Below, one piece after another: positions 1 to 3,283 of a DNA stretch of 30,144 nucleotides (position 1 is its first letter; every line of letters begins with the position of its first letter). The DNA is from a virus: the IMG/VR virus record IMGVR_UViG_3300027736_000167, positions 1-30,144 of that record; one strand, written 5' to 3'. The notes under the pieces were generated by a model. It saw only the letters and a program-made list of their open reading frames with translations, was not told the origin of the DNA and made no database searches. Position numbers and translations under genes: made by a program.

Positions 1-47
1 CTTACCTGCGTGAAAGGCGGGTGTCCTAACCGATAGACGAACCGAGT
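1..47 (-). tRNA. tRNA-Glu (UUC), 5' part, truncated by window edge
   Basis: Read on the minus strand, the bases contain the tRNA-Glu hallmarks: T8-C9, a GTCT D-stem, a GGTTAGGAC D-loop, and anticodon loop CTTTCAC with anticodon TTC. The anticodon stem CCCGC/GCAGG has one C-A mismatch in the middle. The acceptor strand would be ACTCGGT, an unusual A at position 1; the 3' half lies outside the window, so pairing cannot be tested. It follows the 58-residue gene by about 7 bases and probably shares its promoter at 258-285. T4-like phages commonly carry tRNA clusters, so more tRNAs may follow to the left. Confidence 0.8.
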
Positions 48-54
48 AAAACTT

Positions 55-387: not shown

Positions 388-1290
388 TTACTTAATCGCT
401 ACAGGAGCTAGTGCTCTGGTAATACTTGCTTCACCTTTACCATGAATATTGGCATTATAATTATTAATGGTATCCGTTCTTGCTGTACTCAAAAGTTGGT
501 TTGATATTGCAGGAGCAGATGCTGTGGTAAATTTGCTACCTAAAATTGCTGAGTAACCAGATATCACAGGTGCTGCAAAAGAAGTACCATATAATTTGTA
601 ATAAGGATCGCTACCACCTGTTACACCAACAACTAAGAATTTATTTTGGACAGCAGTATTAGTTCCTGCTACATTCGAATAATTTGCCATATTTGCTTTA
701 TTGGTTGTAGTACCATTCTTATCAAGAGCACCAGCAAAGATGGCAGATTTTGTATTGATTAAAGCCACATTTAAATAATCAACTTTTCCACTCCCGTTAC
801 TAGCACCTACTGCCGTACCATAATCGTTACCAGCAGCTTTAGCAACAACAGCATTACCATTCATAGCATGATTAATTATCGATTGTTCTCGATTGTTCCA
901 TCCAATTTGATTGATAGAATATCCAGCAAGATTATATGATGCGTAACTCAAATTGATTATGTTTAAACCTGATGCAGATAATCCAACAGCTGCACCATTA
1001 TTAAAATCTTGTGTTCTAATTGTTGCCAAAGGAGCAATTAAACTTGCTTCATCGGAAGTGAATTTACCATGTTGTTGTGATTTTCTAACTCCATCGAAAC
1101 TTCCAAATAATTTGGTTTTGGAATTAAAATCATCCACAACGGTGATTGTTGTACCTTGTCCTTTAAACCCAGACTTCCAAGCATCAGTAACTTCAGGACT
1201 CATCCATGGTTGTAATGTTTGGGAAAATACTAGTGGTGTTAATAGTGTACCAGTAATTAAAAATAATATCTTTGGAACTCGCTTTTTCAT
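388..1290 (-). CDS. Secreted subtilisin-like serine protease (S8 family), 300 aa
   Basis: The N-terminus is a clear signal peptide: KKR-K, a hydrophobic stretch to about residue 22, and a likely cleavage after VFS. Subtilase landmarks follow in order: Asp53 in ITVVDDF, His74 in QQHGKF, the oxyanion-hole Asn155 in AAGND, and the nucleophile Ser237 in YGTSFAAPVISGY. All catalytic residues are therefore present. The domain starts almost straight after the signal peptide, so there is little room for an inhibitory propeptide, and the usual HGTHVAG is replaced by HGKF. It should act in the periplasm or outside the cell. It is the last gene of an operon with a secreted beta-rich protein and a zinc metallopeptidase, and is followed by a terminator. 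The ribosome site is weak (AAAG). The protease assignment is firm; the role in infection is unknown. Such proteases are unusual in T4-like phages. Confidence 0.88.
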   Translation of the reverse strand: MKKRVPKILFLITGTLLTPLVFSQTLQPWMSPEVTDAWKSGFKGQGTTITVVDDFNSKTKLFGSFDGVRKSQQHGKFTSDEASLIAPLATIRTQDFNNGAAVGLSASGLNIINLSYASYNLAGYSINQIGWNNREQSIINHAMNGNAVVAKAAGNDYGTAVGASNGSGKVDYLNVALINTKSAIFAGALDKNGTTTNKANMANYSNVAGTNTAVQNKFLVVGVTGGSDPYYKLYGTSFAAPVISGYSAILGSKFTTASAPAISNQLLSTARTDTINNYNANIHGKGEASITRALAPVAIK

Positions 1291-1328
1291 TTTAAAACTT
1301 TCATAAAAAAATACTGCATTAAAAAAAA

Positions 1329-1916
1329 CTACTCAAATCTTTTGGTGTATTGGACCAATAGGGTGTTGTAGTTGTAAGGCTTTTCATTATGTAGGTACTG
1401 TAGTGTCTGTGATGGTTGCAATGTAGTTGCAGCCAATCGACAATTAACTTGTTGAACTCCTCCAATATCTCCATAATCTGCCGTACAACTGGACTCTTTT
1501 AAACGACCACCTATAACTGTAGTACCTCTGATTGATATAAATGATTTATTATCAAACTCATATTGTGCTACTAAACCAAGTTTAATACTAGGTTCAACCA
1601 AATATTTTGGTGCCTTTTCTCCAGTACTAAATCCCCAAATTACTCCAAGGTTTCGGTTTATTTGAGATATGAACGAAACCCTCGAATCAGTAAACGGTGT
1701 AGAATACCAACTTTTAAAGTTTTGTGGAGAACCAGTAGACAACTCATAACCTCCAGTACGATATAACTCCATCTTACTTGAAAGTTCCGATCCTTGTTTG
1801 ATTTCTATTAGTTTGGTTGATTCCAAAAAGTCTGCTTGGCAACCTTGATGATATATTAAAAAAATCCCAACTAATACTTTATTAAAGCAAAATCTATTCA
1901 ACTGTATTCTTTCCAT
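1329..1916 (-). CDS. Secreted beta-rich protein, possible outer-membrane barrel
   Basis: I do not recognise the family. A hydrophobic N-terminus (KVLVGIFLIYHQGCQA, then DFLEST) looks like a signal peptide with cleavage after CQA; the HQGC context is a poor lipobox. The rest is rich in alternating polar and hydrophobic segments (for example IKLGLVAQYEF, SFISIRGTTVIGG, NTLLVQYTKRF) and ends in an aromatic-containing RFE, which resembles outer-membrane beta strands. Two cysteines (in SSCTADYG and QVNCRL) could form a disulphide in the periplasm. The ATG at 1916 has only an AGG touching it; a TTG at 1901 overlaps the upstream TGA, has GGAAAGA before it, and gives a cleaner signal peptide, so the true start may be 1901. 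It lies between a zincin and a subtilase gene and could be a partner or substrate of the subtilase, which is inference. Confidence 0.65.
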   Translation of the reverse strand: MERIQLNRFCFNKVLVGIFLIYHQGCQADFLESTKLIEIKQGSELSSKMELYRTGGYELSTGSPQNFKSWYSTPFTDSRVSFISQINRNLGVIWGFSTGEKAPKYLVEPSIKLGLVAQYEFDNKSFISIRGTTVIGGRLKESSCTADYGDIGGVQQVNCRLAATTLQPSQTLQYLHNEKPYNYNTLLVQYTKRFE

Positions 1917-2407
1917 CCTAAAGGTTCTATCTCAATTGGTTCATCTAAATTATTTACATCCTTAAACACATTCCAAAGTTTCTCCTCAATAGCAAACTTA
2001 GTGAATAGTGCCAATTCTAATCCTCTTGCTTCTATTTCCCATGGTTCAAACCAGTAATCAATATCATTAGAAACTTTATTACCTTTCCAACGAGTTAAGG
2101 CTTCGTTGGTTTCACCATAAACAAACTGTTTAATATGTACAAGTTCATGTGCCAAAGTTTTTAATACATCAGGACCACTAATATGATAATTTAATTCTAT
2201 TTCAAATTCTCTTGGTTTACCAGAATTATTATATTCTTTCACTTCGGCATAACCAAGCACATCTAAAGCTTTACTAAACTTTATCTTCAAGTATATGTTT
2301 TCCAATAACTTTTTAGAAATAAGTTCGTTTGTATAAAAAATAGCGGCACGCTTCACATAAGGCCTGAATCGCTCTTTATCGGGACAACCAACTATACTTA
2401 ACTTCAT
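1898..2407 (-). CDS. Zinc metallopeptidase, SprT-like/zincin, 169 aa
   Basis: The central motif is HELVH at residues 87-91, the HExxH zinc site, followed by PWEIEARG near residues 122-128, whose second glutamate (about 126) is the likely third ligand. This layout is typical of the small SprT-like metallopeptidases common in phages. No signal peptide is present, so it should act in the cytoplasm, unlike the two secreted proteins after it. The start is supported by AAGGAGAG just upstream. Its stop overlaps the beginning of the secreted beta-rich gene, which points to co-translation. Substrate unknown. Confidence 0.8.
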   Translation of the reverse strand: MKLSIVGCPDKERFRPYVKRAAIFYTNELISKKLLENIYLKIKFSKALDVLGYAEVKEYNNSGKPREFEIELNYHISGPDVLKTLAHELVHIKQFVYGETNEALTRWKGNKVSNDIDYWFEPWEIEARGLELALFTKFAIEEKLWNVFKDVNNLDEPIEIEPLGWKEYS

Positions 2408-2473
2408 TAGGTCTCTCCTTAGAAAATTGACCCAATAATTGGCATAATACCTATGTTACTCGCACTCCGTTAT

Positions 2474-2683
2474 TTAGTTTTTTATATCAAGATGGAACTT
2501 CATGATTCGGTCTTTAAGCATATCTGGAACATTCAACCATGGAACTTCTAGAAAGAATGGACATCCATCAGGACCCCATGCGTGTCTGATAAAGAAGTTT
2601 TTGGCAAGCTTCATATCATCTTTGGATGTAGCATCAAATAAATGTCTTTGGTGCACAGAAAACAACTCAATTTTGGTACTCAT
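2474..2683 (-). CDS. Conserved-type small hypothetical protein, 69 aa
   Basis: A small soluble protein with a distinctive aromatic and proline-rich middle (FIRHAWGPDGCPFFLEVPWL). No membrane segment or signal peptide. I do not recognise a named domain. It is the first gene after the promoter at 2712-2740, with a GGTGA ribosome site, so it heads the accessory operon that continues through the metallopeptidase to the subtilase. The coding sequence is uninterrupted and well packed against its signals, so the gene is likely real. Confidence 0.7.
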   Translation of the reverse strand: MSTKIELFSVHQRHLFDATSKDDMKLAKNFFIRHAWGPDGCPFFLEVPWLNVPDMLKDRIMKFHLDIKN

Positions 2684-2711: not shown

Positions 2712-2740
2712 ATTATACATGAAAAATAGGAGGCTGGCAA
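2712..2740 (-). promoter_or_regulatory. Sigma70-type promoter of the accessory cassette, overlapping a terminator
   Basis: On the minus strand TTGCCA (2735-2740) is followed after exactly 17 bases by TATAAT (2712-2717), with a predicted start near 2705 and the first start codon at 2683. The -35 box is formed by the loop and first stem base of the hsp20 terminator (2722-2750), so the two elements share bases. Confidence 0.75.
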
Positions 2741-2750
2741 GAGCCTCCTA
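2722..2750 (-). terminator. Rho-independent terminator after hsp20
   Basis: TAGGAGGCT and AGCCTCCTA form a perfect 9-bp stem with a 6-base loop, followed on the minus strand by five Ts (2722-2726). It lies 12 bases past the hsp20 stop codon. Confidence 0.92.
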
Positions 2751-2762
2751 CAAGTTTACCAC

Positions 2763-3275: not shown

Positions 3276-3283
3276 TATTTATA
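3276..3283 (-). promoter_or_regulatory. T4-type late promoter upstream of hsp20
   Basis: A perfect TATAAATA on the minus strand in the regA-hsp20 gap. In T4 this single element is recognised by gp55. Only two perfect copies were found in the window, the other before gp22. Transcription would start near 3270, about 50 bases before the hsp20 start codon. Confidence 0.8.

Follow-up and report, generated by a model that had tools for sequence, protein, structure and literature searches.

A subtilase gene and the gene of a small partner protein have been inserted together into the genome of a lake-type, T4-like phage, between the stop codon of a putative metallopeptidase gene and the terminator of that gene, and the same two genes are neighbors wherever this subtilase family was found. 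We lean towards reading the pair as phage cargo that puts a protease, together with a maturation or anchoring partner, into the host envelope, where surface proteins would be altered. The window, i.e., the whole stretch of DNA that was analyzed, comprises a complete IMG/VR record, 30,144 bases long. The features concerned all lie on the minus strand and are as follows:

55–231, minus: 58-amino acid phage protein flanking the insertion downstream; a promoter-like site of its own lies at 258–285
346–372, minus: intrinsic terminator and transcript end, conserved in relatives with an empty site
372–1899, minus: inserted segment of 1,528 bp with the subtilase and partner genes and no others, in place of a spacer of ~27 bp in relatives
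388–1290, minus: subtilase (S8) of 300 amino acids, predicted to have a signal-peptide-like N-terminus and no propeptide, with Asp53, His74, oxyanion Asn155, and Ser237
1329–1901, minus: partner protein, 190 amino acids from a TTG, or 195 (1329–1916) from an ATG at 1916
1898–2407, minus: putative HExxH metallopeptidase, a gene native to the phage clade and the upstream flank of the insertion
2474–2683, minus: 69-residue protein, conserved across the phage clade
2712–2740, minus: sigma-70-type promoter (TTGCCA-17-TATAAT), serving the genes of the 69-residue protein, the HExxH protein, and the inserted pair

The preliminary description of this DNA had placed its four open reading frames correctly, although the 195-residue frame more likely starts at the TTG. 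Its assignment to a T4-like phage agrees with a window terminase that is 52–55% identical to those of cyanomyoviruses (e.g., P-SSM4 and S-CAM1); RegA and further replication and structural genes are also encoded. Eighty relatives were sampled through the neighboring hsp20 gene, and in most of them, hsp20 is followed by the gene for the 69-residue protein and then by the HExxH gene. The stretch from hsp20 to the tRNA genes is a variable region in which other relatives hold different cargo; the extra genes between hsp20 and the tRNA cluster in L008–L077 differ from one another, with deaminase-like and rubrerythrin-like frames recurring when read by eye. A partial tRNA-Glu occupies positions 1–52 (minus strand) at the contig edge; it is complete in relatives (L002, 5976–6050), where Cys, Gly, and Met tRNAs come after it. 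A sequence resembling a T4 late promoter, TATAAATA, is found on the minus strand at positions 3283 and 18917, the former just upstream of hsp20.

The four closest relatives (L002, L004, L005, and L006) were compared with the window base by base, and all have an empty site. Their DNA is 92–96% identical to the window on both sides of the site, with the match stopping at the end of the HExxH stop codon and resuming at the terminator; the spacer between these two points is ~27 bp in length in place of the 1,528 bp in the window. The HExxH stop codon is itself TGA in the window, as against TAA in the relatives. Neither inserted gene was found in any of the 80 relatives, leaving the window as the sole carrier among 81 clade members. 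The pair is not part of the T4 core, as had been claimed. Both the insertion and the pairing of the two genes are observed. By its flanks, the insertion appears recent relative to the sister phages. Target-site repeats were sought at the junctions, yielding just one six-base word, as chance predicts. The GC content of the insert is 34.7%, compared with 36.0 ± 1.3% for equal-sized segments of the phage, and the GC3 of the inserted genes is 0.18–0.25, compared with 0.45–0.49 in Polynucleobacter; from this composition we infer that another AT-rich phage fits better as the source than does direct capture from a Polynucleobacter-like genome. The pair is phage cargo in the sense of a moron, being non-core, absent from close relatives, and bordered on both sides by phage genes, but a classical moron has its own promoter and terminator, and this pair relies on ones that were already there.

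That the promoter and the terminator are more than chance resemblances is indicated by their conservation in relatives, which bears out the preliminary description of both; because the relatives that retain them lack the pair, the pair uses both signals but did not bring them. The promoter remains TTGACA/TATAAT in the relatives while the hairpin stems around it vary, and the window has TTGCCA. Its −35 box lies in the loop of the hsp20 terminator hairpin (2726–2751, minus strand), the stems of which covary between relatives. Expression early in infection is suggested by the promoter type. The HExxH motif is kept in all 61 relatives that cover the gene; among PHROGs, the protein matches two families with no assigned function, and distant copies occur in cyanophages, Caulobacter phages, and Sinorhizobium phages. 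What did not hold was the proposal that all four genes form one secreted-protease cassette: the 69-residue protein, the HExxH gene, the promoter, and the terminator pre-date the pair in the clade. A single system made of the 69-residue protein, the HExxH peptidase, the partner, and the subtilase would fit the one promoter and one terminator common to all four, but the first two genes are present without the pair in relatives, and the pair is present without them in bacteria and in a second phage, so we regard a four-gene system as highly improbable.

The window subtilase matches Pfam Peptidase_S8 (PF00082) with an E-value of 1.3e-7, above the cutoff, and the same domain was matched in 15 of 15 aligned family members, S8 being the sole domain matched consistently. 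Asp53, His74, Asn155, and Ser237 are invariant across these 15 sequences and intact in both the window and the second phage. The domain, the triad, and the oxyanion Asn together place the protein in peptidase family S8, with proteolysis itself being predicted. Some rhizobial copies on prophage-like contigs (L101–L104) are altered near the oxyanion Asn, and not every member of the family need therefore be active. Structure prediction had been suggested for each protein alone, and both AlphaFold models are weak: that of the subtilase (six-row alignment; pLDDT 57.5) nevertheless finds subtilisins in a fold search (E = 2e-7), whereas the partner model (seven-row alignment) has a pLDDT of only 48 and no significant fold match.

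Subtilases nearly all need a propeptide to fold and to stay inactive. In both the window and the second phage, the catalytic Asp lies ~30 residues past the likely signal cleavage site, much as Asp32 does in mature subtilisin, and no propeptide family was matched among the 15 family members (the propeptide is ~75 residues in subtilisins that have one). A subtilase without a propeptide is supported, though short of proof, by these features. Export of both inserted proteins, as originally described, has a similar standing: their N-terminal hydrophobicities are 2.23 and 2.07, within the range of exported Escherichia coli proteins (2.06–3.18), and those of the HExxH and 69-residue proteins are 0.85 and 0.39 (cytosolic E. 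coli proteins, 0.52–1.43), this measure being a heuristic and not SignalP. Both inserted proteins thus look exported.

The start of the partner was reconsidered. The ATG at 1916 sits inside the HExxH gene, in DNA that is also present in the empty-site relatives; the TTG at 1901 shares bases with the stop codon of the HExxH gene (TTGA) at the very edge of the insertion, and a Polynucleobacter homologue has TTG alone upstream of its signal-like segment. A start at TTG, giving 190 residues, thus seems the likelier. The family is characterized by a hydrophobic N-terminus, two invariant Cys residues (a Cys144–Cys159 disulfide is likely), and an alternating last strand, which is closed by a Phe in 15 of 15 aligned sequences; in the window, L082, and L090, one residue follows that Phe. 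No significant match to the family was found in Pfam, PHROG, NCBIfam, or PDB sequences; Pfam PEX-2N was rejected, as its match (E = 0.011) fell short of the cutoff and was confined to a single member of the 15. Residues in amphipathic strands make up 27.5% of the partner, against 26.5% in outer-membrane, 16.0% in periplasmic, and 16.6% in cytosolic proteins of E. coli, although this is a simple count for which the class ranges overlap, soluble proteins included. Many of the best matches in the partner fold search are outer-membrane barrels, all with E-values of 1 or worse and none significant, and were taken as no more than a hint. The protein is short for an eight-strand barrel. Resemblance to a small outer-membrane beta-barrel is thus supported but falls short of proof.

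The partner might instead be a soluble periplasmic inhibitor and chaperone, that is, a propeptide acting in trans, with its terminal Phe plugging the active site and the protease released to the periplasm or medium. The subtilase without a propeptide, the strict one-to-one gene neighborhood, the invariant terminal Phe, and the likely disulfide would all suit such a protein, and there is a precedent in ASP-ORF2, where the C-terminus of ORF2 touches the catalytic residues of the protease (PMC5638518). The amphipathic strands and the alternating last strand agree better with a protein of the outer membrane, however, and the residue beyond the Phe in three partners would have to be accommodated; we consider a soluble partner possible but the less likely outcome.

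Outside this phage, the closest subtilase is in a Polynucleobacter genome (63% over the best segment), followed by those of a Rhodobacter assembly and of rhizobial plasmids. A functional link between subtilase and partner had been proposed, and the outcome that the two never co-occur was checked: they always do. A partner homologue adjoins every family subtilase found, whether in bacteria, plasmids, prophage-like contigs, or phages, including two divergent members. When 398 Pseudomonadota genomes were searched separately for subtilase and for partner, the same eight genomes were recovered with both, although several of the eight are closely related and the independent events are fewer. Three gene arrangements were seen: the partner comes first in Polynucleobacter, rhizobia, and most others, follows the subtilase in one Rhodobacter copy, and faces it in another. 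In two separate trees, both window proteins fall beside the same Polynucleobacter copy, within whose genus three of 151 genomes have the pair. The bacterial neighborhoods, read by eye, contain no recurring third gene. The subtilase and its partner are thus a bacterial two-gene unit that is accessory in bacteria. One genome of the genus of the Polynucleobacter copy (L090/L142) has two tandem subtilase copies with one partner gene, and a Rhizobium plasmid (L084; 12065–12241, minus strand) has a truncated subtilase remnant near an intact pair.

Profile-based scans of viral sequences revealed further carriers: L100, a second phage fragment (a 45.9 kb record) in which phoH and a tail-collar-fiber gene flank the pair, and four rhizobial-type prophage-like contigs, L101–L104. 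No terminase or capsid match was found between the window and L100, which is a fragment and may lack those genes. Since the surroundings of the pair in L100 are wholly unlike those in the window, its capture there looks like a separate event. In L101, the pair lies between endolysin and integrase genes, which is a usual place for lysogenic cargo. No homologue came from single-protein scans of viral contigs or from a tblastn search of 50,697 phage records. Three freshwater viral contigs (L105–L107) encode a longer subtilase that matched weakly and distantly, and as no partner accompanies it, these were not counted as family members.

The pair is rare in viruses, its carriers beyond the window being L100 and a few prophage-like contigs of rhizobial type, and any benefit may therefore be niche or neutral. 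A neutral or transient capture, in which a single phage lineage took up bacterial DNA and gained nothing from it, would be consistent with a single carrier among 81 clade members (window included) and with a unit that is accessory in bacteria as well (8/398). It accounts less readily for the exact placement of the pair from stop codon to terminator, for open frames and intact catalytic residues, for a composition (GC and GC3) that is already phage-like, and for the second independent phage and the prophage-like copies. On balance, we judge neutral capture to be unlikely.

Under the preferred reading, of cargo acting at the host envelope, the pair would be transcribed from the promoter that the phage already had, having been inserted ahead of the HExxH terminator, and both products would be exported. 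The partner would most likely supply the missing propeptide function, hold the protease in the outer membrane, or both; the former is suggested because the subtilase has no propeptide and the partner is always encoded alongside it, and the latter because its sequence looks like a small beta-barrel. The assembled protease would then trim host envelope or surface proteins, and the likeliest benefit to the phage would be altered phage adsorption or the freeing of virions from receptors, rather than feeding of the cell; superinfection exclusion, one of the roles first proposed, would be a candidate effect. The chaperone or anchor role, the surface target, and the benefit are all inferred, the benefit by likeness to OmpT in prophage DLP12. 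A nutritional role, in which extracellular protein digestion feeds the infected cell, would suit a secreted protease whose closest homologues come from freshwater bacteria; it is improbable, as a lytic cycle leaves little time to profit and the small barrel-like partner suggests attachment to the cell over free release.

Searches of the literature on phage-encoded subtilases and surface proteases gave no matching system, in keeping with the statement that no system with this gene set had been described. Autotransporters of the NalP/SphB1 type, in which a single polypeptide includes a 12-strand translocator of roughly 280 residues, likewise direct a subtilase and a beta-barrel-like part to the cell surface, but here there are two genes, and the partner is 165–170 residues. 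The PADLOC 'subtilase' PDLC03014 and other defense subtilases share the S8 domain (E = 2e-6), but the match is limited to the catalytic core, and the enzyme here is predicted to be exported and stand-alone; the partner had no match in PADLOC. OmpT, in the cryptic prophage DLP12, and SopA, an outer-membrane protease carried by temperate coliphages (PMC6969025), are also phage-carried proteases that act at the bacterial surface. In those, however, the omptin barrel is itself the protease, the sequence and catalysis are unrelated, and the phages are temperate rather than T4-like.

The nearest parallel in organization is the ASP-ORF2 system of Aeromonas sobria, where, as predicted here, a propeptide-less exported subtilase is encoded next to a small exported protein. 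Nearly all subtilases have a propeptide, and ASP is the known exception (PMC9549277); it depends on ORF2, an exported chaperone encoded beside it, by which it is also inhibited, and the operon occurs in several genera (PMC5638518). ASP differs in belonging to the kexin group (PMC9549277), whereas the mature part here is the S8 domain alone, and ORF2 is encoded downstream, whereas the partner here is mostly upstream; the partner profile, run against PDB chains, detected no homology to a solved ORF2. If our reading is correct, the pair would add a further independent family of propeptide-less subtilases, which have been described as rare exceptions, with a partner that has no significant fold match, and would provide a concrete candidate for a phage-encoded surface protease. 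The system is small (about 275 + 170 residues) and so testable in E. coli, and the near-identical empty-site phages show what the insertion adds. More tentatively, it may represent an undescribed two-gene class, spread through Pseudomonadota, in which a small barrel-like partner provides folding, control, and outer-membrane anchoring in trans, and with which several kinds of phage would remodel the surface of infected cells against competing phages. Phage cargo and a subtilase with an external helper are both known kinds, whereas the partner family and the pair itself are undescribed as far as the searches went.
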